A stretch of DNA of 64,000 nt, from NCBI GenBank assembly GCA_029882355.1, contig JAOUKV010000001.1, positions 62,001 to 126,000 of the forward strand, written 5' to 3'. Positions 542 to 62,474 of the stretch are shown here, one piece after another. Position 1 is the first letter of the stretch; each line of letters opens with the position of its first letter. Made by a program: the position numbers and the translations under genes. Below the pieces are notes generated by a model. It had not been told where the DNA came from. It saw nothing but the letters and a program-made list of their open reading frames with translations, and searched no databases. The DNA comes from Gammaproteobacteria bacterium. Lineage in GTDB: Bacteria > Pseudomonadota > Gammaproteobacteria > SZUA-229.

Positions 542-967
542 TTAATATCTATTTTTATCATTCACAGTGTTGAATACAAACGAACGTGCCAGTATATACA
601 TAAGCAATGTATAACTCACTGCAGCGGCAATCTGAGAAATTACTGGATGAAAGTGAAAATAAGTTAATGACAGATAAAGCACCAATAAATTAAATAAAAA
701 TGAAATAACAAATGCAATAACATAGCGGACGCTTTCCGCAACAAAATGACCACTACTGCGAAAAACAAATTTCTTTGAAAGTACAAATCCCGATGTAAAC
801 CCAACGGCATATCCTGTAACGTTTGAAACCACTGGTGAAAAACCCAGAGCCATCGCGGAGAAGATAACGACGAAGCCAAGAACAGTGTTTACTACACCAC
901 TTCCCAAATATCGTGCGATATACGTAGCCTCACTCCAAAAATGAAATGCCCAGTTATTTTTTTTCAT
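542..967 (-). CDS. GtrA family membrane protein
   Basis: A 141-aa protein with four predicted membrane segments and no signal peptide. The layout fits the GtrA/DPMS-associated family: an opening RYLGSGVVNTVLGF helix, a GYAVGFTSGFVLSKKFVF second helix with the charged turn typical of the family, and two more helices ending near RSFVF. GtrA proteins are thought to flip undecaprenyl-phosphate-linked sugars across the inner membrane, together with a GtrB-like glycosyltransferase. A GtrB/ArnC-like enzyme is indeed encoded two genes upstream (1964-2944), which supports this role. Family assignment is firm; the sugar is unknown. Confidence 0.85.
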   Translation of the reverse strand: MKKNNWAFHFWSEATYIARYLGSGVVNTVLGFVVIFSAMALGFSPVVSNVTGYAVGFTSGFVLSKKFVFRSSGHFVAESVRYVIAFVISFLFNLLVLYLSLTYFHFHPVISQIAAAVSYTLLMYILARSFVFNTVNDKNRY

Positions 968-1019
968 TGTGTAGATACTTTATATTCCTGATACTTTAAA
1001 ATATATTGAAGTTCGATTT

Positions 1020-1967
1020 TTATCTACTAGCGCGAACAAACACTGCCCTTTCTGCCGCCATCATCTGTGCGACACCCACAAGTAGACTTGTCCTTGATAT
1101 CTGCTTATTAATCGGCACAGTTATCGAATGAAACTGTATGCGTCGAGTATAAATGCTAGTCAGTTTGCTTGCACTAGAAACTATCCTTGGGCTGCGCCTG
1201 GTAATTCTTTTATAAATTGAAACAATTTCAGCAATGGTAGTAGGCCTTTCGGAAGCAATTATTTTTGTAAAAACCCCCTGCTTCCCATCTAATACACGCA
1301 ACGCAGCGACTATTGCAGAAGCTGCATCATCAGAGATGATGTAATCACGAATAGTGTCAAGTGGAACGTAAATCTGTACTGGTTTATTTCTCAATATACA
1401 ACGTGCCATTAGCGCAATAAGTCCCTGCTGTTTTCCAGTCGCCTGGCCAGGGCCGTATAATGTCGACATTCGTGCAAGAAGCGCAGTTACCCCACAATTA
1501 TTGACAGCAAAGGTATTTACCAAATTTTCCTGCTTAAGTTTTTCATGCGCATAAGCCGTTGTTGGTGCTACAGGTGTATTTTCAGTAATAATATCACCTG
1601 CCGCACCCGCATAGATAGCACCTGCTGAACTAGAAAAAGCAAGACAGCCTTTAGCAGCAACCAGATCCGGCTCGGATTCAACAAGCTTGAGCAGCGTCGA
1701 TAACGTTCGCGTTTCAACTGCAAGTTCCGCCTCGGTACTGCTCATGGTGCCCACACCAGCAGCCCAATAGATCTGCCACTTATTACCGACACCAACAAAG
1801 TCTGCATACGACTTAACTGCTATCTCTAACTGAACGCTAAGCTTAGTCTCGCTATCCCAGTGAAAACGCTCAGCTGGTTGAAACATACTGCTTCCACTAT
1901 GTTGCAATGCACGCTGCAACGCTGCCCCCAACAGACCGCTGCTTCCTATAATCCAGACAGCTGTCAT
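1020..1967 (-). CDS. NAD-dependent epimerase/dehydratase family protein
   Basis: A 315-aa extended short-chain dehydrogenase/reductase. The N-terminal GSSGLLG is the Rossmann GxxGxxG nucleotide-binding motif, and YAHEK near residue 140 gives the catalytic YxxxK. An ARMSTLYGPGQ segment and a C-terminal substrate domain follow. Members of this family epimerise, dehydrate or reduce nucleotide sugars. The C-terminal part is divergent, so I cannot choose between a reductase (RfbD/Rmd-like) and an epimerase. Its stop overlaps the upstream glycosyltransferase in an ATGA arrangement (4 bases), so the two are translationally coupled and probably act on the same sugar branch. Confidence 0.8.
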   Translation of the reverse strand: MTAVWIIGSSGLLGAALQRALQHSGSSMFQPAERFHWDSETKLSVQLEIAVKSYADFVGVGNKWQIYWAAGVGTMSSTEAELAVETRTLSTLLKLVESEPDLVAAKGCLAFSSSAGAIYAGAAGDIITENTPVAPTTAYAHEKLKQENLVNTFAVNNCGVTALLARMSTLYGPGQATGKQQGLIALMARCILRNKPVQIYVPLDTIRDYIISDDAASAIVAALRVLDGKQGVFTKIIASERPTTIAEIVSIYKRITRRSPRIVSSASKLTSIYTRRIQFHSITVPINKQISRTSLLVGVAQMMAAERAVFVRASR

Positions 1968-2944
1968 TGATGAATATCCGGCCGTGTAGGTTTCGTTCCG
2001 ACAACATACAATGGCTTACCCATAACGATACCCATGGTCACCGCAAGGTACTCAGCAATCACTCCAAGAGCAGTCAGGGTGGCACCAGAGAAAAAGGAGA
2101 CCACAATTACTAATGATGCCCAGCCCTGAACTGGAACATCTAGAAAGAACTTCACATAAACTGCATAACTAGCAATAGCTATGGCCAGTATCAAAGAACA
2201 AAAACCCATCAGAGTAATCAATCTAAGCGGACGAGTACCGGTAGTAAGGATCAATCTCCAGAAGTGACTGAACAACTTGGAATACGAGTATCCTGATGGT
2301 CGATCCAGTTCATTTCTCAAACGTACAGGACAGTGACCAATGCGTCCGACAATCCAGTAAAGCCCCACATCGAGATAAACACCATTACCACAATATGCTG
2401 CCAGGGTTCGTGCAATCTCACCATCAACCAGACGGAAACTATTAAATTTCCCCACCTTGCTACTACTTAGCAATTTTGCAGTGATCGCCTTGGCCATTCT
2501 ACTTAAGGAATTTCGAAGCCAGCCATGTGGTGCTGGATTCGTTGGCTGTGCATAAACCAGTTGAAGTGATTCGCTTATAGCGCTATCCAGCATATGACCA
2601 ATATCTGAAGGGTCTTGCTGCCCATCCTCATCGATAGTAACAACCCAGTCGCCCGTAGCACTGGCCATACCCGCCATTGTCGCAGCATGTTGCCCGTAAT
2701 TCCGGGACAGCCATACTGGACGGACAAATGAATATTTGTTTCCCAGTGCCTCCATAACCAGGTCAGATCGATCAGGACCACAGTCATGCACAAGTAATAC
2801 CTCACTAACAACATAGGGTGTGCCGTCAGGGGTTGACTGTCCAAGTGTCAGCGGCTTGATTTCATCAATCAAGGTTGGAAGAGTTTTCTCTCCGCAATAA
2901 ACGGGGATAACAATAGAAATTCGCTGAGGCGCAGAAGTATTCAT
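1964..2944 (-). CDS. Polyprenyl-phosphate glycosyltransferase (GtrB/ArnC-like GT2)
   Basis: A 326-aa dolichyl-phosphate-mannose-synthase-like GT2. The N-terminal catalytic domain begins ISIVIPVYCGEKTL and carries DEDGQQDP as the metal/nucleotide-sugar site; a RNYGQHAATMAGM segment is typical of the ArnC/GtrB group. Two C-terminal membrane helices (about residues 235-257 and 272-300) anchor it with the active site in the cytoplasm. Such enzymes transfer a sugar from a nucleotide donor to undecaprenyl phosphate, and the product is then flipped by a GtrA-like protein, one of which lies just downstream (542-967). Together they look like a glycan side-branch modification module. Which sugar is used is not visible. 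Confidence 0.85.
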   Translation of the reverse strand: MNTSAPQRISIVIPVYCGEKTLPTLIDEIKPLTLGQSTPDGTPYVVSEVLLVHDCGPDRSDLVMEALGNKYSFVRPVWLSRNYGQHAATMAGMASATGDWVVTIDEDGQQDPSDIGHMLDSAISESLQLVYAQPTNPAPHGWLRNSLSRMAKAITAKLLSSSKVGKFNSFRLVDGEIARTLAAYCGNGVYLDVGLYWIVGRIGHCPVRLRNELDRPSGYSYSKLFSHFWRLILTTGTRPLRLITLMGFCSLILAIAIASYAVYVKFFLDVPVQGWASLVIVVSFFSGATLTALGVIAEYLAVTMGIVMGKPLYVVGTKPTRPDIHQ

Positions 2945-2984
2945 GGCATTTGGTTCCTTTTAACTTGTTTGATATAAGGTGATA

Positions 2985-3713
2985 TCATTTCCTAACCACC
3001 GCGAGAACAGATACACCAAATGGCAAACTTACAAATCTAAGCAGGTATTTTTCAATACCAAAAATCTTTTCCAGAACAAAGTTTACCGGTCGGCTTGGCA
3101 TTTCAATATCTGAAGCGCCATCCCGTTTCAAAATATTATTCAATATACGCACAACAAAAACGATGGGGAATAGCAGAGTGTTGTAATAGGTAAGCTTCTC
3201 CACCGTAAAACCAGCCTGTACAAGTTTTGTTTCAAGTTCTTTGCGTGTGTATCTACGCTTGTGCTCGTTCATTTCATCAAATGATGACCAAAGGAACATA
3301 TAAGCAGGAACGGTGATGACTACTTTACCCCCTGGAACAAGAAGTGAGTGCATAGCCTTTAATGAATCAATATCACGATCCACGTGTTCAATCACATCCA
3401 GAGCGGTAATTAAATCAAAGAAGCCGTCATCGTAAGGAATATGATCAGGCAACGATCCTTTTTCCACCTTACCGTTAAACACCTGTTTACTAAAGTTAAT
3501 TGCATCATCTGACATATCCATACCGTAAACCTGACCTACATCGTCAAGAGCAGTTAACATCACACCAGCTCCGCAACCAATGTCCAGAATCTTAGCGTTA
3601 TCGCCCTTGATTAAATACCGCTTAATAGTATCAAGGACTATTTTTTTTCGGGTAACAAACCACCAGTGCTTTTTCTGTATTTCGAAAAATATTCGATACA
3701 TGTCTATGTTCAT
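2985..3713 (-). CDS. Class I SAM-dependent methyltransferase
   Basis: A 242-aa methyltransferase. Motif I (ILDIGCGAG, about residues 43-51) binds S-adenosylmethionine, YGMDMSD gives the acidic residue after strand 2, and FDLITALDVIEHV matches motif post-II of the Methyltransf_11 type. The C-terminal region is rich in hydrophobic residues (LFPIVFVVRIL), as in small glycan- or lipid-associated methyltransferases that sit near the membrane. Its place between glycosyltransferase and membrane-protein genes suggests methylation of a sugar or chain end, but this is inference. In ABC-exported O-antigens, methylation can cap the chain; no proof of that role is visible here. Confidence 0.8.
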   Translation of the reverse strand: MNIDMYRIFFEIQKKHWWFVTRKKIVLDTIKRYLIKGDNAKILDIGCGAGVMLTALDDVGQVYGMDMSDDAINFSKQVFNGKVEKGSLPDHIPYDDGFFDLITALDVIEHVDRDIDSLKAMHSLLVPGGKVVITVPAYMFLWSSFDEMNEHKRRYTRKELETKLVQAGFTVEKLTYYNTLLFPIVFVVRILNNILKRDGASDIEMPSRPVNFVLEKIFGIEKYLLRFVSLPFGVSVLAVVRK

Positions 3714-3808: not shown

Positions 3809-6202
3809 TCAATTTTTAATAGCAACTTTTTTCTTAAAAATCACTAGCCTGATAACGACAATCAAAAGACATAGTACTGATATTACTAACCCAGTCCTCA
3901 TATACGGTGGAAAATATTTTAGCTCAACTAGATTATCTCCTTGCTCTAAATACAGCCCAGAGAAACCATAATTAACTTTATGAACTTCACTTTTTTTGCC
4001 ATTGACATAGGCAGACCAGCCCGCGTCAAATGGAATTGACAAGAAAAGAAGCTTGTTCCGCTCAAGGTGTATACTCCCCTTAATTTCGTCCTCACTCATT
4101 TCAACTATTTCAAGAACATCTTTTTTCAGGCTTTCTCTAAAATCATCATCATTTTGCTTAGGCGCTATTTGCAACACCTCATTAAGATTTATTGATGTCA
4201 CTTTTTCAAGGGCGGCACCCTGAAGTAATGCGCGCCCCCGTTCTGAGTGATTAAGTTCACTCAATACCGAACTGGCAATATACGAGTCATATGTATAACC
4301 AAAGGGAAGACGACTATTCCTCAAATAAATTGAAACATCGCCATGTTTTTCAATATATGTCACATCAAATGGCAGTTCACTATCATTTTTTGTAAGGTGG
4401 TATTTCACACTTAATATATCAGCTAAATAAGGGTACTCAAGTGAGTTCACCTTCACAACATTTGGATGTCGACTAGAATAACCAAACTCTTTTAGAAAAC
4501 CCCAGTAACTTGGGTTGTTTAATGAATTATATGTATCAAGACCAAAATAATTCTGAATTAATGAATCATTCAAACTTAGTAACCAGTGATTTTTTTCTAT
4601 TCTATAAACAGAAGTATCAGTGGTTTCTAGTTTTTTCACTGCCTGATATCCGTAATCGAAAAAATGTATATTTCTATTATTCTCTATTCCTTTATCGAGA
4701 ACACTTCTTTTTAGAAAAGATTTTCGGTGCTCAACAATTAATTCTCCACAAATTAATAATAGTATTAGCGATAACACTAAAGGCCTTCTTTTATCTTTCA
4801 TTAAAAAATAAAGTAAAAACCCATAACAGATAATAAAAAAAATCAAAACAATCGTTCTAATAATATTTCTTTTGTATAACGTAGCGTCGAGCAGACTGTG
4901 ACTATTCATGTTTATAGCCACTAGACATAAAACCAAACAAATCCCGGTTACTATTAAAACTGGCAAATTTATCTTTTTTTGCTTAATTATTGAGTCCAAC
5001 ACCAATGCAGCTAGCAGCAATTCAAAAATAATGACACTGTACCCCCATCTATATGATGGATACTGAAACCCATTCATTATCTGAGCAAAACCAGGAGCTA
5101 CTAATATAGCTGCAACAACTAGCAGAGCAAGTGAGGCAATCCATTTCCCTCTCGTTGAAAACACGCTGTACAGCTGGGGTAAGAGAAGTAACGGAAAGAG
5201 ACCGGCATACAGCTGAATTGATTCGTAATAGTTCAAAAACCCTTTGTATTCGGAACCAATGCCCTGAAGATTATTTGAAAATATTCTTGCTAGCAAGGAC
5301 CAGTAGTAATCCGGCGTATTAAAGCGAACAAAATTTGAAATTGTTTCAACAAGACGGGTATAAAAATCAGTTGATATCCTAGGGCTAGATTTTAACAAAT
5401 AATATTCGGGCAACCAAAGTACAGCTGAAATACCTAAGCCCAACATATATATCGCGCCTATCTTTATTATTTTTAACATCCATTCACGATTTGAAAAATT
5501 CTGCCATTCAGTGCCTATTCGAAATATGACATACAAACCAAAGAATATTGATATTTGCCAAAATATTGCGATATTCAACATCATAAATGACACGCATAAT
5601 GCCATGGGTAACCATTTCTCTGTTTTAAGCCACACTTCAAACGTATATAATAAAAGCGGTAAAAACACTAACCAGCTAGCATAAAAATAGTGCTGCCCAA
5701 ACCCCATCAAGAAGCCATTGAAGGCAAACAGTACCGATGCGACTATACATGCGTATGCACTAATACCAAGATAGCGAAGATACATATATGTAAACGTTGC
5801 AGCGCAGAATATTTTCAGGACGTATGCCCAAGCAATTAATCGAGAGACATTTTCTACACCTCCCACGTAATATATAATCGAGAATGGATCGTATAAAAAC
5901 TGGTAGAGAGTTAGGACGCTCGCCCCAGTACCCAAATTAAATGACCATAAAGGCAACTGAAAGTTAGAGATGTAGTTTGTAAAAAAATAATAAACAGCAT
6001 AGTAGCTATAGTAAGTATCATTACCAATGTCGACAAAAATCAGTAACTTCTCACCAAATAAAAATCGACCAAGCACCCCAATGCAAACTAGACTAACCAG
6101 CAAAAATAAATACAGAATAGGCTTACGGTCTTTTATCCAAAAACCACCAGGGAACTCCAATGAAGATATTTTTGTTAAGATACTCATTTTTTCACTAAAC
6201 AT
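3809..6202 (-). CDS. YfhO-family multi-spanning membrane protein
   Basis: A 797-aa protein with roughly a dozen membrane helices through about residue 500, a soluble extracytoplasmic C-terminal domain, and a final helix near the end (LVISVLCLLIVVIRLVIF). The DIGNDTYYSYYAVYYF loop after the first helix and the C-terminal FDAGWSAYVNGK and LVELKYFPP segments are hallmarks of the YfhO family, which is related to GT-C glycosyltransferases and implicated in glycosylating cell-wall or envelope polymers from lipid-linked sugars. Base composition looks more AT-rich than the rfb genes upstream, hinting at separate acquisition. A second possible start, Met6 (6187), exists; neither has a clear Shine-Dalgarno. 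Confidence 0.8.
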   Translation of the reverse strand: MFSEKMSILTKISSLEFPGGFWIKDRKPILYLFLLVSLVCIGVLGRFLFGEKLLIFVDIGNDTYYSYYAVYYFFTNYISNFQLPLWSFNLGTGASVLTLYQFLYDPFSIIYYVGGVENVSRLIAWAYVLKIFCAATFTYMYLRYLGISAYACIVASVLFAFNGFLMGFGQHYFYASWLVFLPLLLYTFEVWLKTEKWLPMALCVSFMMLNIAIFWQISIFFGLYVIFRIGTEWQNFSNREWMLKIIKIGAIYMLGLGISAVLWLPEYYLLKSSPRISTDFYTRLVETISNFVRFNTPDYYWSLLARIFSNNLQGIGSEYKGFLNYYESIQLYAGLFPLLLLPQLYSVFSTRGKWIASLALLVVAAILVAPGFAQIMNGFQYPSYRWGYSVIIFELLLAALVLDSIIKQKKINLPVLIVTGICLVLCLVAINMNSHSLLDATLYKRNIIRTIVLIFFIICYGFLLYFLMKDKRRPLVLSLILLLICGELIVEHRKSFLKRSVLDKGIENNRNIHFFDYGYQAVKKLETTDTSVYRIEKNHWLLSLNDSLIQNYFGLDTYNSLNNPSYWGFLKEFGYSSRHPNVVKVNSLEYPYLADILSVKYHLTKNDSELPFDVTYIEKHGDVSIYLRNSRLPFGYTYDSYIASSVLSELNHSERGRALLQGAALEKVTSINLNEVLQIAPKQNDDDFRESLKKDVLEIVEMSEDEIKGSIHLERNKLLFLSIPFDAGWSAYVNGKKSEVHKVNYGFSGLYLEQGDNLVELKYFPPYMRTGLVISVLCLLIVVIRLVIFKKKVAIKN

Positions 6203-6222: not shown

Positions 6223-9200
6223 TTAAACTGAGCCAGTATTTGAATCTGTATTTTTCAACGACTTTCTCATATCACAAATTCGATTTTCACAAACCTTATA
6301 CTCGGGATCTGCAAGAACCGCCCTACGCTCCACTTCATTATTAAATGCAAGTGTATGCTTACGATCAACACTGTGAATATAATCCCCAATATATAAATCC
6401 TCTTTCAGGCCAGTCCAGTCAGCATTGTCCTGAGTGAAAAGTTGTAAAGTTAAAAAGTAATCTTCCATGTATCGATGATCATCATAATAAATAATATCGT
6501 CTAAGTTAAGCATATCCATATCAAGCATAAAACTGTGTATAGGTGCATGATTAGACCCGATGAAGTCTTCATATGAATGGCCGTATGAATACTCCTTCTT
6601 TCTTTCCATGCACACTCCAGTTGCTCCATTGTAGCTGGTAGAATAAACGCGGCCAAAGGATATAGCTTTACCTGTTTTCTTCAATCGACCAACTAGCCAA
6701 CTATAGGCATGGGACATTAGAAGGTCATCAAAATCAAGAACTGCTGCGTAGTGAGTCGAAACCTTTTTGAGTGATTCGTTTAGCATTTTCGAGCGCAGAT
6801 CACCATTACCGTTAGGAGAATGATAATGGTGAATTTGTGGTTCAAAACCATCTATCCATGAAAAATCATCTAATACATTTTCCAACATTGTAATTTGCTG
6901 TTCATCGAGATCTTGAACAGCAATAAGCGGTACTACAATACAGTCCTGCATGGCAGACAAACAGTACAATGCATTTTTTAAATCAGAAATATTAGCTGAT
7001 TTGTGAAATCGAATGATTGTTGTTACAGCAGGCCGCTCTCCAGCTTCTAGTGTACTTGGTTGAGCCACGAAACAACGTGCATCGGTACGCATCCTGAAGT
7101 TCTTATAGCCAGATCTTATTGAAACCTTGGGTGACAGCAGTAACGGCGCGGTATTTCGGACATTAGAGTGAACAGAACCATTGTCAGTTACCTCAATAAG
7201 AGGAGAATTACCATCATAGCTATTTGCAATCACAGCTGAACCAGACTCACACGCCATCTGAATCATTTTTTCAATAAGCAATGAATCAAAAAGTGCAATC
7301 TGGCGAAATTCCATGAAAAAATCAGCATCGTCAGACTCGGGTTGTACCGTAATAGATAAATCTTTCATCAGCTCAAGCGCATTCGTACTGACCGAGCAGA
7401 CATTGAATACTGATGACCTTGACAGGTGAAAAATAAACCGTTTTTTTAACTCATTATCTTTCTGGAGCTGATCTAAAATATTATCTGAAAAAGATAGGCA
7501 AACTTTGATGCCCGCAGGTAGCGAACAACTGAGATTTAGATCTCCCGAATAGGTTATACCCGATAACGCACGACCAACAGAATTAAGATAGCTGTAACCG
7601 TAACGAGTGTCTGGCTCAAGATGAGCACCTTCTGCCCACTCATTCCATGCATTGACCAGCACGAATTGCCTATCTGGCTGCAACGTTGATTTAGTATATG
7701 CAATAGTACTTTCCAGCCATTCCTGAAAAAGCTCAGGCGTACTACCGTGAAGTACATAGGCATCTGATCCATAACGTGCCGTATTATCCCAGATAGGCAC
7801 CAAAGAACGGAAATATGTAAAGTCCTTTACATCTTTCTGTTCAGTGTAGAAGTTCGCCACTTCATCATAAGACAACACACTTCCATTGATAGGCTGATAA
7901 TTGAGCAATGTATTTTTTTTCTCGGGTACAGCACCATCTGTCCAATCATGGAGATTGCGTTCAACACCCGCGTCCATTCCAAAATCTTTTGGATTACTCG
8001 CACCACGAGTAAGCACCGCAACCACATAGGGTAGTTTAATCCCAACTTTTGCACACTCTGTTTCCCAAATATCCAAATACTCCTGAGAGTTCGGGATCGA
8101 GGATGGTCGATATACAAATAAGACTGGGCGATCGTCTATCTTGATATATCGAGGATCTTTAAAGAACGGAATCAAATACTGAATAAAGTCTTGCGCATCT
8201 TGTGTCGAATAGTTCTGTCCGAGTAAAATCTCACTCTCGTTTCCATCCCAACGCCGAGTCCAGTTTTCGTTCGCCCAACAGAAGCAGAAGGGCATATTAA
8301 TATCGGGGTTATCAAGAAGAAGCCTTGCGGGTTCTTCGAGAATCAGTTTTCCCGAGAACCAGTAATGGTAGAAGACCTGCCCATGAACACCGGCTTGTCG
8401 CATCAGCTCAGCCTGATGCCTGAGCACATCGGGAGAATCTAGCAAATAATATCCGATATCCGAATGGGGTATGTGTTGTTGGTAGTGCCCGTCAAAAAGC
8501 GGGTTGGCTGCTCGAACCTTAGTCCATTCAGTAAATCCCTTACCGTGCCACAAATCGTTTTCTGGAGTTGGGTGGAACTGCGGAAGGTAATAAGACAACA
8601 CCTTAATATCACTATGGATGATTGATGAAGAATAATCTTGCTGCTCTTCATAGTAACGATAATCTCGAATCGAATCCCCTTTATAAATACTAATATATTT
8701 GCCTTGGTATTCGCTCATAAAAATCAAAATGAGCCGTTGAAGTACATGGACTAGTGTGCCGTCACCGGCCATCGGCTCAGATGGAAAGTCGCTATAATTA
8801 AGTGGTAACCCAAGAAAATCTTTTAAACACTCTGCGCGAGCCCAAAACATCGGACCTTCAGGAAATTCGACGACAGGGAAATCATGAATATGAAATTGTG
8901 TATATTTTTCAAGCAACTGTTTTGCCAGGTCATAGTTTGCTGACCAGCCACTACAATCCTTGATTAACTCTGTACGTCCCTCTGGAAAAACGATCTTTGC
9001 TGTAGATTGTAGTAGTTCAACAATGTGTGCAACACGACCTCCGCAGCTTCCATGTGGACCAATCAACAAGTCTAAAATATCTGTACACCAATCTGCCATA
9101 TCACTATTGCGCGGACTTTTATCAGCATGAAAATGGCCAATAATTTCGTATTGAGATAGACGTTCACCAAACTGAATGATAAGCGGCGCGATATCTTTCC

Positions 9201-10764
9201 CTCGGTTAGGTACAGGTTCAACGATAATTTCTCCAGCATGGGGAAGCGCAGCCATCAATTCAGAATTGATGGTGGCAAGATCGCTGGATTCCGGCACAGA
9301 CACATAAAGATCATATGGGATATGTATTGCTTCCAGATGAGAGGCAAATTCATTCAGCATTTCTGTGTAATGGAGATGCAAATGAATCGCTACAGAGACC
9401 TCCGTGCCAAGTTCTTCAGCAATTGAATCCAACTGTGGATCAATATAGTGCGGTACAACTAAAAGTTTAGATAGAGTTACTGAATCCATTTCAGTAATAG
9501 TATCTTGGTGCATCGCTCGCCTTAACCTTATCTTGACTCCCGCAATACCCTCTTTACGAATAACATTTACTGATTTATGAAACGTAGACTGTAGTCCGCC
9601 CCCTTTTTTCAAAATATAAGGCAGTATAAAGATTACACTGAACACTTTTCGAATGGTTGTAGTCACAAATCGTAATGGCGCAGTTATGCGCCAGCTTCTG
9701 CTTCCACGAATCTCTGCAATTGAATCATTCAGACTGGCAATCTGACCATCGCGTTCAGCTATAGCCTGATCGCGTTCAGCTATAGCCTGATCGCGTTCAT
9801 CTACAGCCTGAGTGAGAGTATCAATCTGTCTATTACATTCGACTACAACCTGATCGCGTTCATCTACAGCCTGGCCTAAACTTTTAGTTTTGATCACGAA
9901 CTTATCAGCAAGAATCAAAGACGACTTAAGACGGTCGAATTCTTTTGACCATTGAACAATCAAATCATGAAAATCTGGATCATTGACTTTTACTCGATCC
10001 GAAACCACATCCAAAAGAGCAGCGTATATCTCATAGACCAATGGAGGGCATGTATCATCAAGCAACAAATCGCTCAACTTGTATGTCGTATGGCGTAATG
10101 TCTCATCAAGAAAATCGTTTTTGTAAATTTGCAGTGCTGTCGTATCAACCTCAAGTTCCAGAGTTTTTGCTATCCGCTTTAACTCTCGCTCAGGCGACTG
10201 CATCAGGCGGTCATAATCAACAAACATCCGCTTATCACCAGCGCTGCCGGTTAAACTCGTGATTACATGACCTACCCACAACAGATAACTATGCTCCATT
10301 TCAATGCCGTCACGTTCAGCCAAAGACTTGGCCACACTAAGTGGATGGCGCACGGCAATGACATAGCTCACATCAAATTGACAGTGGCTAAACACCTCTT
10401 TCCAGAAAGGCAGTAACTTTGCCACACGTGGGTCTTTGAAACCAAATATGGACGCACTACAGACTTTCTGGCGAAGTAACTCGACCGCACGGTGGTAATA
10501 TCCTTGCTTGTGTAAAGTCTTCACATCGATAGAGTCAATCGCAGCAAGATGATACCAATCACTGTTAATAGCACTCAGCATCTCGACATCTAGCACATTG
10601 ATATCAATATCTTCCCAAAAGCCTTTATCATTGACCCCCTCTAAGGCTCCATACAGCGTATCACCAAGATTCACTCCCAACACTTGCAGGCCGCGCGTAA
10701 TAACACTTGTGCCACTGCGATGCATTCCTAATACAACAATCAATTTTTTATTCTTCACGGCCAT
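6223..10764 (-). CDS. Giant multidomain glycan enzyme (sulfotransferase-, RgpF-, WbsX- and GT2-like)
   Basis: About 1513 aa from ATG 10764, which lies 13 bases after the wzt stop behind an AAGAGA; a longer start at 10821 would overlap wzt by 44 bases. Parts in order: residues 1-290 sulfotransferase-like with P-loop GMHRSGTS near residue 13; 290-350 coiled coil of AERDQ-type repeats; 355-365 SWRITAPLRF, a signature often found in large glycosyltransferases; 450-650 RgpF-like (rhamnan synthesis F; NRGKDIAPL); 715-1060 WbsX-like (LSYYLPQFHP, WANENWTRRWDG, NAWNEWAEG); 1240-1500 divergent GT2-like with DFDDLL. It follows the ABC transporter genes, so it probably assembles or decorates the exported glycan. 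The sulfotransferase-like part suggests sulfation, which is not proven. Confidence 0.85.
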   Translation of the reverse strand: MAVKNKKLIVVLGMHRSGTSVITRGLQVLGVNLGDTLYGALEGVNDKGFWEDIDINVLDVEMLSAINSDWYHLAAIDSIDVKTLHKQGYYHRAVELLRQKVCSASIFGFKDPRVAKLLPFWKEVFSHCQFDVSYVIAVRHPLSVAKSLAERDGIEMEHSYLLWVGHVITSLTGSAGDKRMFVDYDRLMQSPERELKRIAKTLELEVDTTALQIYKNDFLDETLRHTTYKLSDLLLDDTCPPLVYEIYAALLDVVSDRVKVNDPDFHDLIVQWSKEFDRLKSSLILADKFVIKTKSLGQAVDERDQVVVECNRQIDTLTQAVDERDQAIAERDQAIAERDGQIASLNDSIAEIRGSRSWRITAPLRFVTTTIRKVFSVIFILPYILKKGGGLQSTFHKSVNVIRKEGIAGVKIRLRRAMHQDTITEMDSVTLSKLLVVPHYIDPQLDSIAEELGTEVSVAIHLHLHYTEMLNEFASHLEAIHIPYDLYVSVPESSDLATINSELMAALPHAGEIIVEPVPNRGKDIAPLIIQFGERLSQYEIIGHFHADKSPRNSDMADWCTDILDLLIGPHGSCGGRVAHIVELLQSTAKIVFPEGRTELIKDCSGWSANYDLAKQLLEKYTQFHIHDFPVVEFPEGPMFWARAECLKDFLGLPLNYSDFPSEPMAGDGTLVHVLQRLILIFMSEYQGKYISIYKGDSIRDYRYYEEQQDYSSSIIHSDIKVLSYYLPQFHPTPENDLWHGKGFTEWTKVRAANPLFDGHYQQHIPHSDIGYYLLDSPDVLRHQAELMRQAGVHGQVFYHYWFSGKLILEEPARLLLDNPDINMPFCFCWANENWTRRWDGNESEILLGQNYSTQDAQDFIQYLIPFFKDPRYIKIDDRPVLFVYRPSSIPNSQEYLDIWETECAKVGIKLPYVVAVLTRGASNPKDFGMDAGVERNLHDWTDGAVPEKKNTLLNYQPINGSVLSYDEVANFYTEQKDVKDFTYFRSLVPIWDNTARYGSDAYVLHGSTPELFQEWLESTIAYTKSTLQPDRQFVLVNAWNEWAEGAHLEPDTRYGYSYLNSVGRALSGITYSGDLNLSCSLPAGIKVCLSFSDNILDQLQKDNELKKRFIFHLSRSSVFNVCSVSTNALELMKDLSITVQPESDDADFFMEFRQIALFDSLLIEKMIQMACESGSAVIANSYDGNSPLIEVTDNGSVHSNVRNTAPLLLSPKVSIRSGYKNFRMRTDARCFVAQPSTLEAGERPAVTTIIRFHKSANISDLKNALYCLSAMQDCIVVPLIAVQDLDEQQITMLENVLDDFSWIDGFEPQIHHYHSPNGNGDLRSKMLNESLKKVSTHYAAVLDFDDLLMSHAYSWLVGRLKKTGKAISFGRVYSTSYNGATGVCMERKKEYSYGHSYEDFIGSNHAPIHSFMLDMDMLNLDDIIYYDDHRYMEDYFLTLQLFTQDNADWTGLKEDLYIGDYIHSVDRKHTLAFNNEVERRAVLADPEYKVCENRICDMRKSLKNTDSNTGSV
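9751..9813. repeat. Tandem 21-bp repeats in the coiled coil of the giant glycan enzyme
   Basis: GCGTTCAGCTATAGCCTGATC occurs twice back to back (9751-9771, 9772-9792) and a third, diverged copy follows (9793-9813); a further related copy begins near 9855. On the coding strand they encode DQAIAER-type heptads. They set the length of the coiled-coil spacer between the sulfotransferase-like and glycosyltransferase-like parts. Confidence 0.8.
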
Positions 10765-10777
10765 CACATCTCTTTTT

Positions 10778-12172
10778 TCAAATCTGCTCTTGCTGCAATT
10801 CAAACTCTGGATAACAGCCAAAATCGATAATCCCAGTCGTCAAGTTCTCTGTATCGGGTAAAACCCTAAACATCGCGATATCAACCAAGCGATGAAGGTA
10901 CGTTTCACTATCATCAACATTACCAACCACACCTGCATTTAGAAAATACACGCCTGGATTCAAAGCGCAGCGAAATTGGAACTCTACTCGATAGTTTTCT
11001 CCCTCTTTAACGAATGCCAGACTATCTTTGACTGTGCTAGCTGATACCCCTCCTCCCAACTCCACTCCTGATGTAGTTTTGATGAGCATACCAAAAGTCA
11101 CATTAGTTACACTCTTGCTAAACTGCACAGTGTAGGTATAACGATAAACCACTCCTCGAACTAAGTTGTTTACTTGCTCACCCGCCAAGGTTAATACCGC
11201 AGGGGCTTCAATATTTGCACCGTTGGTTTCGTACTCGATGGTACTGCTTGGTTTGAGATTGGGATCAAAATATTCTTGTTGTTCCTGCGGACGCTTAGTT
11301 GATGAATGTTCATCATGTGATGTGTTATTGTCGGCACTAGCCATTGTCTCAAGCGGCTCATCCGTAGTTCGAATTTGCTCCCGAATTTCTTCATGCTTAT
11401 CCGCAGGGGCATAGAGCAATTTTTGATAACGACCCACAATTTGCTTAGGGACACCAACAGCTATTTTTTCACCCGCATCCATCAATACAGCACGGTCACA
11501 TAGCTCAACTATAGTGGCACCCGAGTGAGACACAAACAGTATGGTCGCCCCGCTGGCACGAATGGCTTCGATACGGGAAAAACATTTGCGCTGGAATAAT
11601 TCGTCCCCCACAGATAGGGCTTCATCGACAATCAGAATCTCTGGGTCTACGTTGATAGCAACCGCAAATGCCAGCCTCACCATCATCCCACTGGAATAGG
11701 TCTTAACAGGCTGTTCGATGAATTCCCCAATGTCTGCAAAGGTAGCAATTTCATCAAAGCGAGCGTCAATTTCTTCGTTGCTTAAGCCCAGTACAGAGGC
11801 ATTCATGTACACATTCTCGCGCCCAGTAAACTCAGGGTTGAAACCAGATCCTAGTTCTAACAGAGCAGCAATACGACCGTAAGTATTTACCGTGCCGGCA
11901 GTAGGAGTGAGTGTGCCACAAATAATTTGCAGCAAAGTAGACTTGCCACTACCATTACGGCCAATAATACCAACAGCATCACCTCTTTTCACTTCAAAAG
12001 AGACATCTTCAAGCGCCCAGAATTCTTTGAAGTATTGCTTATCCGCTCTACCAAGAATGCGCCTAACTTTTGGCATAACAAACTGTTTGAGCCTATCGCT
12101 CGGAGTAGCGTATATCTCGTAGCACTTACTTATGTTCGTAACTCGGATAGCAATATCAGAGGACATCTGCAA
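10778..12172 (-). CDS. wzt: O-antigen/polysaccharide ABC transporter ATP-binding protein with C-terminal Wzt domain
   Basis: A 464-aa ATPase. Walker A is GRNGSGKS (about residue 74), the signature is TYSSGM, Walker B is ILIVDEALSVGD, and GRIAALLELGSGFNPEFTGREN is the conserved stretch of the polysaccharide-export ABC subfamily. After a polar, low-complexity linker (about residues 265-310) comes a beta-rich C-terminal domain like Wzt_C, which in known systems recognises the finished, capped chain before export. The C-terminal domain makes this more likely an O-antigen exporter than a capsule KpsT type. It overlaps the permease gene by 17 bases. It powers export of undecaprenyl-linked glycan across the inner membrane. 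Confidence 0.92.
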   Translation of the reverse strand: MQMSSDIAIRVTNISKCYEIYATPSDRLKQFVMPKVRRILGRADKQYFKEFWALEDVSFEVKRGDAVGIIGRNGSGKSTLLQIICGTLTPTAGTVNTYGRIAALLELGSGFNPEFTGRENVYMNASVLGLSNEEIDARFDEIATFADIGEFIEQPVKTYSSGMMVRLAFAVAINVDPEILIVDEALSVGDELFQRKCFSRIEAIRASGATILFVSHSGATIVELCDRAVLMDAGEKIAVGVPKQIVGRYQKLLYAPADKHEEIREQIRTTDEPLETMASADNNTSHDEHSSTKRPQEQQEYFDPNLKPSSTIEYETNGANIEAPAVLTLAGEQVNNLVRGVVYRYTYTVQFSKSVTNVTFGMLIKTTSGVELGGGVSASTVKDSLAFVKEGENYRVEFQFRCALNPGVYFLNAGVVGNVDDSETYLHRLVDIAMFRVLPDTENLTTGIIDFGCYPEFELQQEQI

Positions 12173-12983
12173 ATCCTTTACGAGTTTTCTGAAACCAGGA
12201 AAAACCAGCCCAGGCCACCAATATACTCACGATGTACGCAACAATCAGTCCTGTCCAATTAGGCATGTTCCCCCACATCAATACATCACGTGCTTGTTCG
12301 ATTACGAAAGTCAGCGGGTTTAAATAAATCATTGTTTGATAGGGTTCTGGCAACCTTGAAGCAGGGTAAAAAATTGGTGACATAAATAGCAGTATGGTTA
12401 CTAATACGCCCGTCATTTGCCCTATGTCTCTAATATATACCCCCAGTGAAGCCAGCATCCAGGAAATCCCCAATGAAAACAACACTAACGGAATAAGTAT
12501 CAAAGGCAGAAAAATAAACGTCCATTGCAGAGAATAGTTCACAGCGAGATAAAATATTCCCCACACCAACATACTTATACAGGCATGAAATAATGTTGAT
12601 CCCAATACAATCCAGGGCAGTATTTCCAAAGGAAAGACAACTTTCTTTACATAGTTAACATTTCGCAACATTAAAGTTGGAGAATTATTCATGCTTTCCG
12701 CTAAAATACCGTGAACAATCATGCCAATAAAAAGAACCAACGCAAATTCTGTTTTGCTATCCGAACCCACATTCCACTTCATCTGAAAGACAGTACTAAA
12801 AACCACTGTATATACAGCTAACATAATAAGAGGGTTGAAAAATGACCAGGCGATGCCCAACATGGAACCACGATATCGGCCGATAACCTCGCGTTTTGTC
12901 ATTTGAATAATTAAATTTCGATGACGCAAAACACTACTGAGCATTTCAAATACTGAAGTTTTATGTTTAACGTTAGGATTCAC
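12156..12983 (-). CDS. wzm: O-antigen/polysaccharide ABC transporter permease
   Basis: A 275-aa ABC-2 type permease with six predicted membrane helices. The cytoplasmic N-terminus has the TKREVIGRYRGSMLGIAWSF segment that defines the polysaccharide-export permease group, and the C-terminus has the PLTFVIEQARDVLMWG stretch seen in Wzm/RfbD-type proteins. It overlaps rfbD by 4 bases upstream and wzt by 17 bases downstream, so transporter and dTDP-rhamnose synthesis are co-transcribed. It forms the membrane channel for the Wzt ATPase. Confidence 0.93.
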   Translation of the reverse strand: MNPNVKHKTSVFEMLSSVLRHRNLIIQMTKREVIGRYRGSMLGIAWSFFNPLIMLAVYTVVFSTVFQMKWNVGSDSKTEFALVLFIGMIVHGILAESMNNSPTLMLRNVNYVKKVVFPLEILPWIVLGSTLFHACISMLVWGIFYLAVNYSLQWTFIFLPLILIPLVLFSLGISWMLASLGVYIRDIGQMTGVLVTILLFMSPIFYPASRLPEPYQTMIYLNPLTFVIEQARDVLMWGNMPNWTGLIVAYIVSILVAWAGFSWFQKTRKGFADVL

Positions 12984-13867
12984 GCTAATTCCTCAATGCA
13001 CAATTCAAGTGCTATTTTCCAATCAGGCATTTTTACATCAAATGTATTTTCTAACTTAGTACATCGCAATTGTGAATTCATTGGCCTGCTTGCTGGCGTA
13101 GGATAGTCAGTTGTTGGAATTGCCTTAATATCTTTAATTTTTAAATGCTGATCTAAAGTCTTACTCGTCACATCAACAATCTCTTTAGTGAAACCATGCC
13201 AGCTCGTATTAGCAGAAGTAGTAAGGTGATACAAATCAGAAGAAAAAACACCTTTCTGCTTTTCTCTCAGCGCCTGTTGCAAACATAATGCTGTAGTTTC
13301 AGCAATTAGCCTGGCTGAAGTAGGCGAACCAATTTGGTCAGCAACAATGCTCAACTCTTCTCTTTCTTTTGCAAGTTTTAGAATCGTTAATAAGAAGTTA
13401 TGCGCTCTCGATGCGTAGACCCAGGAGGTGCGAAAAATTAAATAATCACAACCTGAGGATTGTATAACTTGCTCTCCCTCCAGCTTAGTTCGACCATAAG
13501 CATTGATTGGGTTAGGCGCATCCGTCTCATCATACGGACCTTTTTTTGTTCCATCAAAAATATAATCTGTTGAATAATGTATAAGCAATGCTTTTATTTT
13601 CAAAGCCTCTTCTGCAAGCACACCAGGCGCAACAGTATTAATAGTTAATGCCAGACTCTCTTCTTCTTCAGCTTTATCTACTGCGGTATATGCGGCCGCA
13701 TTAACAATCACGTCTGGCTTTATTGATTGAACAATTTCCCTCAGACTCTCTGGTTTGGAAAAGTCGGCCACATCATATTCCAAAGCAATAACTTCACCTT
13801 GTGGCTGCAGTGAGCGATTTAACTCCCACCCAACTTGTCCATTTTTGCCAAATAAAAGAATTTTCAT
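12980..13867 (-). CDS. rfbD: dTDP-4-dehydrorhamnose reductase
   Basis: A 295-aa reductase that carries out the last step of dTDP-L-rhamnose synthesis, using NAD(P)H to reduce dTDP-4-dehydro-L-rhamnose. GKNGQVGWEL is the N-terminal Rossmann motif, VNAAAYTAVDKAEEE is the family hallmark, STDYIFDG carries the catalytic Thr/Asp region, and YGRTKLEGE the YxxxK. Length is normal. The start codon overlaps the rfbC stop by 4 bases and its stop overlaps wzm by 4 bases, so it sits inside a tightly packed operon rfbBACD-wzm-wzt. Confidence 0.95.
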   Translation of the reverse strand: MKILLFGKNGQVGWELNRSLQPQGEVIALEYDVADFSKPESLREIVQSIKPDVIVNAAAYTAVDKAEEEESLALTINTVAPGVLAEEALKIKALLIHYSTDYIFDGTKKGPYDETDAPNPINAYGRTKLEGEQVIQSSGCDYLIFRTSWVYASRAHNFLLTILKLAKEREELSIVADQIGSPTSARLIAETTALCLQQALREKQKGVFSSDLYHLTTSANTSWHGFTKEIVDVTSKTLDQHLKIKDIKAIPTTDYPTPASRPMNSQLRCTKLENTFDVKMPDWKIALELCIEELA

Positions 13868-14412
13868 TCAAACAAATCCGCCTGCTTAAATAATTGTCCA
13901 TTCGCATCCTTATCTGAAACTAAGGGTGAACCACCAAACTGCCAATCTATTGACAAGCCATCATCATCCCAGCGAATACAACGCTCATATTCTGGCGCAT
14001 AATAATCTGTTGTTTTATACAGAAATTCCGCTTCATCGGATAAAACAACGAAACCATGCGCAAAACCTTCTGGCATCCAGAACTGACGTTTATTTTCTGC
14101 TGACAAATGCACTCCTTGCCACTGACCAAAAGTTTCAGATGATTTTCTGAGATCAACGGCAACATCAAACACTTCGCCTCGAACTACTCTAACCAGCTTT
14201 CCTTGTGGTTGTTTTATCTGGTAATGCAGGCCTCGTAAAACGCCTTTTGTAGATTTGGAGTGATTATCTTGGACAAACTCATCAGTAACACCAGTTAGTT
14301 CTTTAAAGATTTTATTATTAAAACTCTCAAAGAAAAAACCACGTTCGTCACCAAACACTTTGGGTTCAATAATTAATAAATCAGGAATTCCCGTGGTTAT
14401 GACTTTCATCAA
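13864..14412 (-). CDS. rfbC: dTDP-4-dehydrorhamnose 3,5-epimerase
   Basis: A 182-aa cupin-fold epimerase, the third step of dTDP-L-rhamnose synthesis. Diagnostic segments are [21 protein letters not shown] with the catalytic His, [19 protein letters not shown], and PEGFAHGF. Length fits the family. It overlaps rfbA and rfbD by 4 bases on each side. Confidence 0.96.
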
Positions 14413-15296
14413 GTTAAAACTTCTTCGCCTGCACGACGAATTAAATACTGTCCATACTGATTTTTCTTTAGGGGTTGAGCCAGCTCTATTAGTTTTTCTT
14501 TACTGATATAACCCATCTCATAGGCAATCTCTTCGATACAGGCTACTTTCAATCCCTGTCGATTTTCGATGGTTTGTATAAAGTTTGATGCCTCTAATAA
14601 GCTTTCGTGTGTACCTGTATCCAGCCACGCATAACCACGCCCCATCAGCTCAACTTTTAGATCACCCTGTTCAAGATATTTTTGATTAACTGTAGTAATT
14701 TCAAGCTCACCACGTTCTGACGGTTCTATCTGTTTTGCAATTTCTACCACATTATTAGGGTAAAAATACAAGCCTACAACTGCATAGTGACTCTTGGGTT
14801 TTTCTGGCTTCTCTTCAATGCTTAAGACATTACCATTAGCATCAAATTCAGCCACACCGTATCGCTCAGGATCTTTAACAAAGTAACCAAATACCGTGGC
14901 TTTTTTATCCTCGGTAACATTTGCGATTGAATTTGCCAGCATAGTTGTTAAGCCATGCCCATAAAAAATATTATCACCCAGCACTAAACAAACATCGTCA
15001 TCGCCGATAAAGTCTTCGCCTAATATAAAAGCTTGTGCTAGACCATCCGGCGAAGGTTGTTCAATATAAGAAAACTTCATACCAATGTGACTGCCATCAC
15101 CCAGTAATTTTTCAAACTGAGGCAGGTCTTCCGGGGTTGAGATAATCAATACTTCGGTAATCCCTGACAACATAAGCACTGACAAAGGATAATAAATCAT
15201 TGGTTTATCGTAAATTGGTGTTAGTTGTTTACTGACACCCTGGGTAATGGGGTAAAGACGCGTGCCAGAACCGCCAGCTAAAATAATACCTTTCAT
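14409..15296 (-). CDS. rfbA: Glucose-1-phosphate thymidylyltransferase
   Basis: A 295-aa nucleotidyltransferase that joins dTTP and glucose-1-phosphate to give dTDP-glucose, the entry step to dTDP-L-rhamnose. [11 protein letters not shown] is the nucleotide-binding signature, [11 protein letters not shown] the sugar-phosphate lobe, and [10 protein letters not shown] and [19 protein letters not shown] are the conserved family blocks. Normal length. Its ATG shares the A of the rfbB stop codon (one-base overlap, TAATG). Confidence 0.96.
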
Positions 15297-16357
15297 TAAT
15301 CTTCTTCTCCAAGACCCAGTCGTTCACCCTGGTAACTACCGTCGAGCACGTGCTGACACCATTCATCATTATCAAGGTACCAGTTGATAGTTTTTTCCAT
15401 GCCCGTTTCAAAAGTCTCTTCTGGTGTCCAGTCTAAATCTCTGGCAATTTTATCGGCATCAATCGCATAACGAACATCGTGGCCAGGACGATCAGAGACA
15501 TAAGTGATAAGCGACTCATGGGGTTTATAAGGTGATTCCGGAACGAGCTGATCAAGCAGTGTGCAAATAGTTTTAACTACTTCCAGATTTGTTTTTTCAT
15601 TGTGGCCACCAATATTGTAGGTCTCACCTGTTTTTCCCGTTTCCAATACCAGTCGCAAAGCACGAGCATGGTCATCCACGTGTAACCAATCGCGTATCTG
15701 AGAACCATCACCATAGATAGGCAGTGGCTTACCATCCAGCGCATTTAAGGTAACAAGTGGGATTAACTTTTCAGGGAACTGATAACCACCGTAATTATTG
15801 GAACAGTTGGTGATAACAATGGGCAGACCGTAAGTACGATACCATGCTCTAACTAAATGATCTGACGATGCCTTACTGGCTGAATACGGTGAACTGGGTT
15901 CATAACTGGTTTCTTCGGTAAAAAATCCATCAGCTTCTAAATCGCCATACACCTCATCAGTTGAAACATGATGAAACCTGAAAGCTGATTTTTTATCCAC
16001 ATCGAGTTGCTCCCAATATTTTTTTGCCACATCAAGCAAGATATAGGTGCCAACGATATTAGTCTGGATAAAATCGGCAGGGCCATCGATGGAGCGGTCA
16101 ACGTGTGATTCCGCCGCCAGATGCATAACGGCATCGGGCTGATATTGTTCGAAGATACGCTTAACGGCATCTGCGTCACAAATATCAGCATGTTCAAAAT
16201 GATAGCGAGGATGACTGGATACTTCAGCCAGTGACTCCAGATTACCGGCATAAGTCAGCGCATCCAGATTTATTACTTCGTGATCTGTATCTTTAATATA
16301 TTGACGTATAACTGCGGAACCAATGAAGCCCGCACCACCTGTTACAATTATTTTCAC
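15296..16357 (-). CDS. rfbB: dTDP-glucose 4,6-dehydratase
   Basis: A 353-aa extended SDR enzyme converting dTDP-glucose to dTDP-4-dehydro-6-deoxyglucose. [13 protein letters not shown] is the NAD-binding motif, [15 protein letters not shown] the family signature, [11 protein letters not shown] holds the Thr-Asp-Glu catalytic set, and [15 protein letters not shown] the YxxxK. It is the first gene of the packed rfbBACD-wzm-wzt operon; the promoter should lie in 16358-16528, where I see no convincing -35/-10 pair. Confidence 0.96.
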
Positions 16358-61550: not shown

Positions 61551-62474
61551 TTATCCACGGGGATGGTGTTGATGATATAGATCCTGTAATCGCTGATCAG
61601 CCACATGTGTATATATCTGGGTTGTCGAAATATCACTATGTCCGAGTAACATCTGTACGACACGTAAATCTGCACCGTGATTGAGCAAATGCGTGGCAAA
61701 GGCATGGCGTAATGTATGTGGTGATAATTTATTCGTATCGATACCCGCTTTCGTACCATTTCTTTTAATCATGTACCAAAACGCCTGACGACTCATTGCC
61801 TGGCCACGTTTTGTAACAAAAACGGCATTAGTAGGTTTTGCATGTATGGGTAACAGCACAGGTCGAGATTGTTTTAAATATCGCACAATCCACTCTAAGG
61901 CGATTTCACCAACAGGAATCAGACGCTCTTTGTCTCCCTTACCAATCACTCGAATCACTCCAGGCTCCAATGATAATTGTGATAATTGTAAATTCACCAA
62001 CTCGCTGACACGCAAACCTGTGGCGTAAAGTAATTCCAACATGGCTCTATCACGCAAACCAAGCTCGTCATCAACATCTGGCGCATCTAATAATTGCTCA
62101 ACCTGAGTTTCATTAAGTGTTGAAGGTAAAGATTGCTCCGCTTTTGGTGATTCCAATAATTTGGTCGGATTTTCCTGAATTCGATGCTCACGCAACAAAA
62201 AACCATAAAATCGACGCAACGATGACAATAATCTCGCTGCTGAACGAATTTTTGTACCGGATTTATGCTGTTGGTTTAAATAATTTTGAATAGAAAGTGT
62301 ATCAGCCGTGCAAAACACCTTGCCCTGTTGGCTCAACCACAACGAAAAACCCGCTAAATCATTTCGATATGCGGCTAATGTATTTTCACTGAGTGCATTC
62401 TCCATCCACAAATGATCAATGAATTGCTCCAGCAATTTTTGTTCATTAAGTGGCATTTGATCAGCTTTGGCCAT
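61551..62474 (-). CDS. xerD: Tyrosine recombinase XerD
   Basis: A 307-aa recombinase that, with XerC, resolves chromosome dimers at dif. The core-binding SAM-like domain is at residues 12-100 (WMENALSENTLAAYRNDL). Catalytic residues are visible in TGLRVSELV (Arg), HTLRHAFATHLLNHG (His-x-x-Arg), LGHSDISTTQIYTHV (His and Tyr nucleophile). ATG 62474 is preceded by GAAGGG; a TTG at 62492 is in frame but less likely. The dsbC neighbour supports xerD over a phage integrase. Confidence 0.94.
   Translation of the reverse strand: MAKADQMPLNEQKLLEQFIDHLWMENALSENTLAAYRNDLAGFSLWLSQQGKVFCTADTLSIQNYLNQQHKSGTKIRSAARLLSSLRRFYGFLLREHRIQENPTKLLESPKAEQSLPSTLNETQVEQLLDAPDVDDELGLRDRAMLELLYATGLRVSELVNLQLSQLSLEPGVIRVIGKGDKERLIPVGEIALEWIVRYLKQSRPVLLPIHAKPTNAVFVTKRGQAMSRQAFWYMIKRNGTKAGIDTNKLSPHTLRHAFATHLLNHGADLRVVQMLLGHSDISTTQIYTHVADQRLQDLYHQHHPRG

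Follow-up and report, generated by a model that had tools for sequence, protein, structure and literature searches.

A predicted sulfotransferase-headed polymerase in a putative ABC-transporter O-antigen cluster: a candidate for sulfate-capped chain termination

How O antigens are terminated and exported under quality control has been worked out for methyl, phosphate/methylphosphate and Kdo caps. A locus in a gammaproteobacterium of the SZUA-229 lineage raises the question of whether sulfate might serve as a further cap. In the window, that is, the whole stretch of 64,000 nucleotides analysed here (positions 62,001 to 126,000 of contig JAOUKV010000001.1, assembly GCA_029882355.1), a single gene joins a predicted sulfotransferase (ST) head through a coiled coil to a series of putative polymerase modules. 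The relevant genes, in window coordinates, are the following.

10764..6223, minus strand: ST-headed polymerase gene, 1513 aa, ATG at 10764
10778..12172, minus strand: wzt, ABC transporter nucleotide-binding subunit with a C-terminal carbohydrate-binding domain (CBM) (PF00005, E 1.5e-24; PF14524, E 5e-31)
10823..11239, minus strand: Wzt_C domain (PF14524, Pfam E 5e-31; co-variation with ST), proposed reader of a terminal modification
12156..12983, minus strand: wzm, ABC-2 membrane subunit (PF01061, E 2e-29)
12980..16357, minus strand: rmlD, rmlC, rmlA and rmlB, dTDP-L-rhamnose synthesis (names from translated sequences)
3809..6202, minus strand: YfhO-family membrane protein, next gene downstream of the polymerase (PF09586, E 1e-69)
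542..3713, minus strand: genes for a GtrA-like protein, an epimerase, a GT2 and a methyltransferase, same cluster (open reading frame list and Pfam)

The initial annotation had placed a frame of 1513 residues at 6223-10764, behind wzm/wzt and next to a Wzt with an additional C-terminal domain. Coordinates and length are right, the strand being minus; the upstream order is rmlB-A-C-D-wzm-wzt with the polymerase gene directly after, and the adjacent Wzt does carry Wzt_C. A longer alternative frame with a TTG start extends to 10821; the ATG at 10764 has the purine-rich AAAAAAGAG immediately upstream, and the wzt stop lies 13 bp before it. The rml gene order of the window is also found in L042 and L047 (compared loci are cited by L numbers). 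Further downstream, beyond the window, there are another GT2, a WbaP-like sugar-phosphate transferase and an O-antigen-ligase-family protein. On this gene content (rml, wzm-wzt, GT2, WbaP-like transferase, ligase and others), the whole locus looks like an ABC-transporter-dependent O-antigen cluster.

The polymerase protein can be divided into six segments.

9904..10764, minus strand: ST head, residues 1-287 (Pfam, 35-row alignment, AlphaFold, fold comparison)
9706..9903, minus strand: coiled-coil linker, residues 288-353, heptads VDERDQAIAERDQAIAERDGQIASL (coil reading and DNA repeat)
9472..9705, minus strand: post-coil segment, residues 354-431, starting with SWRITAPLR (357-365) (alignment)
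8722..9471, minus strand: C-terminal half of RgpF (PF05045), residues 432-681 (Pfam E 1e-36)
7579..8601, minus strand: WbsX domain (PF14307), residues 722-1062, GH99-like barrel with WNEWAE at 1040-1045 (Pfam E 2e-123)
6226..7539, minus strand: C-terminal GT2-like domain, residues 1076-1513, LDFDD motif (weak GT2 match; same domain in L098, L100, L109 and L110)

The domain series proposed earlier (sulfotransferase, coiled coil, RgpF-like, WbsX-like, GT2-like) is thus right in outline according to Pfam and folds, but two of its members need qualification. The RgpF match (127 bits) spans only positions 245-496 of the 503-position profile, so that one half rather than a full-length family member is present; in L047 RgpF occurs as two stretches, of which the best spans profile positions 1-243. 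The WbsX match covers essentially the whole profile (1-349 of 350; 413 bits, above the cut-off), and the domain is a GH99-type barrel, not a standard glycosyltransferase. WbsX, named a glycosyltransferase, has a fold like that of GH99 endo-mannosidases, and its WNEW[AG]E motif is kept in 17 of 18 copies (the window and 17 related domains). The last domain may be called GT2-like only in a weak sense: the LDFDD motif is present, and the match to Glycos_transf_2 (PF00535, residues 1307-1388, E 0.007) scores 16.7 bits, below the cut-off of 23.3. The structure model of the C-terminal part is moderate (pLDDT 78), with a clear match to a known fold for the WbsX part only.

Is the head a sulfotransferase? 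Its match to Sulfotransfer_3 (residues 9-207, E 2e-5) reaches 25.2 bits, below the Pfam cut-off of 27; in NCBIfam the head alone gave no match and the whole 1513-aa protein only coiled-coil noise, and a sequence search of the protein against solved structures returned nothing useful. The assignment was settled by structure prediction, fold comparison and an alignment of 35 rows. The AlphaFold (AF2) model of the head has a pLDDT of 94.8, and its best PDB matches (Foldseek, VIA) are the tyrosylprotein sulfotransferases TPST1 and TPST2, which come first (Z 15.7, rmsd 4.1, 212 aligned), and the sulfotransferase domains of olefin synthase and of the curacin pathway (Z 15.1-15.7 for the group). Adenylate kinases, themselves P-loop folds of another kind, score Z 11 with shorter alignments. 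The claim that this is a sulfotransferase would fall if the first ~290 residues lacked a PAPS-sulfotransferase fold, and PAPS sulfotransferases proved to be their best match. The head contains a 5'-PSB loop (GMHRSGTS, 13-20), KDPR (110-113) and a 3'-PB element, R139-x7-S147, the spacing seen at the 3'-phosphate site of PAPS sulfotransferases. The residues of the GMHRSGTS-type loop, N45, E51, K110, P112, R113, R139, S147 and R151 are invariant across the 35 relatives, which are 19-48% identical to the window head. The genome encodes an APS kinase (PF01583, E 8e-58), and PAPS can therefore be made. By fold and PAPS motifs, the head is a PAPS-dependent sulfotransferase, its activity being predicted. 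That the N-terminal domain keeps the fold while being inactive or transferring another group, as a structural part of the polymerase, would fit Pfam scores under the curated cut-off; this is nevertheless very improbable, given PAPS-binding motifs that are invariant or nearly so among relatives often only 20-30% identical, and the recurrence of other ST families in the same slot.

The ST family is present in 36 of the 369 genomes of the class, mostly within large multi-domain frames, and the named genome collection contains at least 567 relatives. The complete series (ST, coil, RgpF half, WbsX, C-terminal domain) recurs in five other loci, all behind wzm and a CBM-bearing wzt: in Pusillimonas sp. 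TS35 (L098), a Pseudomonadaceae MAG (L100), Pseudomonas koreensis (L109), P. sputi (L110) and genome G580 (L193). The architecture is therefore not a chance assembly. Elsewhere the parts are split: in Neisseriaceae TC5R-5 (L088) and a Desulfobulbaceae MAG (L095), ST and coil form a gene of their own behind wzm-wzt with WbsX separate, as is RgpF in L095.

Some related loci have other layouts. Giant ST-containing frames adjoin Wzm/Wzt in L232 (2058-11999, 3314 residues) and in L160 (2649 residues). On the Desulfolutivibrio plasmid p1 (L307), taken as a control, a close RgpF-WbsX-C-domain protein has no evident coil and belongs to an ABC-transporter locus that looks capsule-type; on account of this look, and of a nearby annotated sulfotransferase gene of different appearance, L307 was rejected as an instance of the same arrangement. 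A 1128-aa frame with an ST head in Aeromonas salmonicida (L145) may be a second ST-type gene after wzt. The O-antigen cluster of A. salmonicida contains a 216-aa ORF with an ST domain, yet the bulk O-antigen structure was reported without sulfate (PMC4483657). This counts against a sulfate cap, although a single sulfate per chain could be missed in a bulk structure.

What role might the head play? L271 (genome G282, same class) was collected via its Wzm and not via the ST. In the same gene place it encodes a protein of 1527 aa with the same polymerase modules in the same order, preceded by a coil and SWRITAPLR, the RgpF half, WbsX and C-terminal domain being 56, 73 and 47% identical to those of the window. 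Its head, by contrast, is a Methyltransf_24 domain unrelated to the window head. In the RgpF part, L271 (56%) resembles the window more than four ST-headed relatives do (29-42%). In L047, whose genome belongs to the same family as the window's, the parts are split: a stand-alone protein after wzt combines what by eye is a methyltransferase head with a short coil and SWKMTLPLR, and another protein carries RgpF-RgpF-WbsX. Sulfotransferase and methyltransferase thus alternate in one slot. Within the sample gathered by Wzm, a methyltransferase is the type of head recognised most often, and an ST is seldom found. WbdD and WsaE both have a methyltransferase head at this position, where it is known to act as a terminator (PMC3482155, PMC2943079). 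By analogy, and from the swap read in the sequences, the ST most probably stands where WbdD/WsaE/WbbB-type proteins have their chain terminator.

The slot filled by the window's ST is taken elsewhere by at least four further types of ST. Behind a CBM-bearing Wzt we found Sulfotransfer_1 with a coil (L200), Sulfotransfer_2 with a coil and GT4 (L190), a classical Sulfotransfer_3 with a coil that follows a methyltransferase (L191), and proteins with a coil and a FRSGST/FRAGST loop without a Pfam match (L189, L198). Such other types lie directly behind a CBM-bearing Wzt in L189, L190, L191, L198, L200, L202, L222 and L227, some recognised by motif only and several with a coil of their own. Provided that the cases recognised by motif are real, sulfation seems to have been recruited to one role more than once.

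The Wzt_C domain, the proposed reader of a terminal modification, seems to follow the head rather than the polymerase. In L271 the Wzt_C is unrelated to that of the window (score 40, 22%) despite 54% identity in Wzm and 61% in Wzt_N, while loci that pair an ST with a different polymerase (L088, L090, L095, L049, L099, L127) have Wzt_C domains 57-70% identical to the window's. Prediction was assessed on 58 loci gathered by Wzt_C or Wzm similarity, not by ST. With ST presence labelled partly by hand reading of Pfam output and sequence, similarity to the window's Wzt_C predicted the presence of any ST (AUC 0.85, p 2e-5); over the same 58 loci Wzm (AUC 0.52) and Wzt_N (0.63, p 0.07) were not predictive. 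Among the 15 loci with a Wzt_C score of at least 200, 7 contain the window's own ST family, against none of the 43 with lower scores (p 2e-5); L232 (score 208), outside the 7/15 count, also contains it. For this family Wzt_N separates well too (AUC 0.95), and the any-ST contrast and Mantel tests are therefore the cleaner evidence. Among 26 ST loci with a CBM, ST distance correlated with Wzt_C at r 0.70, with Wzt_N at 0.60 and with Wzm at 0.49; the partial correlation of ST and Wzt_C given Wzt_N and Wzm was 0.45 (p 0.0005), and the reverse partials were about 0. This is support, not proof, that Wzt_C tracks the ST, because faster evolution of Wzt_C than of Wzt_N and Wzm could inflate r. In L188 a Wzt_C 60% identical to the window's has no adjoining ST; the same genome carries an ST gene on another contig (L065).

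These comparisons bear on two other accounts of the enzyme. In the first, the ST would sulfate an internal sugar of every repeat, with the coil as a flexible tether holding the enzyme near the polymerase. Members of the ST family also occur behind a CBM-less Wzt and as a stand-alone protein (L044), where no end-reading exporter is evident, and regularly sulfated bacterial polysaccharides exist (e.g. PMC11766843 and PMC11641403). The account fits poorly, however, with a methyltransferase replacing the ST on the same polymerase while Wzt_C changes along with the head, and with a head N-terminal to a long coil, which is the position of the terminator in WbdD, WbbB and the O7 protein (PMC11231755, PMC3482155); we regard it as unlikely.

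In the second account, sulfate would be terminal but a decoration only, export and length being independent of it; the terminal pyruvate of Klebsiella O1 is such a case. Pyruvylation there diversifies the chain without setting its length, and the O1 transporter has no CBM (PMC11231755). ST-coil proteins adjoin a CBM-less Wzt in many loci (L042, from the window's genus, and L050, L053, L056, L068, L074 and L083), and cap reading by Wzt_C therefore cannot be general. The ST of such loci may be no more than a decorating enzyme, or another checkpoint may be at work there. The window's Wzt, on the other hand, has a CBM, and Wzt_C co-varies with ST sequence, which makes pure decoration improbable for the window. 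On the ST tree the presence of the CBM is scattered and clusters weakly (10 changes; 47 of 500 shuffles as low). A generalization that ST-linked Wzt proteins mostly have no CBM was rejected; it came from a gammaproteobacterial ST sample and fails for the closest relatives.

The coil had been described as having expandable heptads, and its DNA indeed repeats in heptad units: a 21-bp tandem repeat is present six times at 9748-9873. A survey of 111 ST-family proteins with enough sequence beyond the ST domain found tandem repeats after that domain in 39 (among them L050, L051, L058, L088, L090, L095, L125 and L127), the period being a multiple of 21 bp in 26 of the 39; tested among the 38 in-frame periods, for which 1/7 is expected, this gives p 5e-14. 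The periods show duplication of coil DNA in heptad units, which by itself says nothing on the control of glycan length. The sequences look as if coil length were retuned by slippage, and the tandem repeats hint at a simple genetic means for bacteria to adjust the length of their surface glycans. From the ST landmark to the post-coil motif, distant relatives span 178 to 659 residues, and no modulo-7 preference was detected in their coil length from a fixed ST landmark. In L050 (9692-12254) two reading frames share the 21-bp array: that of the ST enters the repeat in the wrong frame, and the coil goes on in an overlapping one; this would be a frameshift, phase variation or an assembly error. After the coil, an S[WF][RKQ]xTxPLR-like motif (window 9670-9696) is present in many loci with either a sulfotransferase or a methyltransferase head, and may serve both kinds of protein for anchoring or docking. 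At the place where terminators of the WbdD/WbbB/WsaE type have a membrane-associated amphipathic region, the window protein has this conserved SWRxTxPLR segment.

Our preferred reading, to which we give a probability of roughly 0.64, is that the protein would be a one-chain polymerase with a sulfate-cap terminator for an ABC-exported O antigen, the cap being read by Wzt_C and the coil setting the length. The RgpF-half, WbsX and C-terminal domains would extend a polyprenol-linked glycan, probably containing rhamnose; the PAPS-dependent ST at the far end of the coil would sulfate the non-reducing end of a chain that has grown up to it; the terminal sulfate would stop growth; and the neighbouring Wzt_C would recognise the sulfated end and license export, the length of the coil setting that of the chain. 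The domain identities, the ST fold with its PAPS motifs, the gene order, the methyltransferase head swap and the co-variation of ST and Wzt_C support this reading here; analogy with WbdD, WbbB and WsaE supplies the rest, namely a sulfate at the chain end, the licensing of export and the coil as ruler. The cap, reader and ruler suggested by the initial annotation are partly supported by comparison, through the head swap, a Wzt_C that seems to follow the head and expansion in heptad units. We lean slightly towards the broader view that sulfation is a further termination chemistry of ABC-exported bacterial glycans, for which several unrelated ST types would have been recruited, Wzt_C specialised for a sulfated end and the coil retuned by 21-bp duplications. 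A sulfate cap, if true, would be a new signal for termination and export and would explain orphan ST genes beside wzt, as in Aeromonas salmonicida. The window and L271 constitute a natural head swap, with similar polymerase modules and different heads and Wzt_C domains, which makes the specificity of Wzt_C testable.

The literature searched, whose coverage is incomplete so that an earlier mention is possible, yielded no sulfotransferase chain terminator; close parallels in layout exist. In WsaE of Geobacillus stearothermophilus NRS 2004/3a, too, one polypeptide begins with a capping enzyme and continues with glycosyltransferase domains; its gene comes directly after wzm-wzt, and the cluster includes rml genes (PMC2943079), a likeness of layout and not of compared sequences. 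WsaE has a 2-O-methyltransferase head and two rhamnosyltransferase domains, whereas the window protein combines an ST head with the RgpF half, WbsX and a GT2-like domain; with a sulfotransferase in place of the N-terminal methyltransferase, it is not a WsaE proper. WbdD of E. coli O8/O9a shares a terminator head, a coiled coil, a polymerase-associated region and a Wzt with CBM, but its head is a methyltransferase or kinase-methyltransferase and its polymerase, WbdA, is a separate protein (PMC3482155); the split ST-coil genes of L088 and L095 resemble this WbdD plus WbdA layout. In WbbB of Klebsiella O12 and ORF6 of O7, terminator, coiled coil and polymerase GT modules reside in one polypeptide, as in the window, but with Kdo-transferase or methyltransferase-kinase heads and other GT families (PMC11231755). 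The window protein has the layout of such coil terminators, with a head (1-287), a coil (288-353) and GT modules (432-1513) beside a Wzt with CBM. The architecture is real and recurrent, and is best read as an ST-headed variant of the known coiled-coil chain-terminating polymerases.
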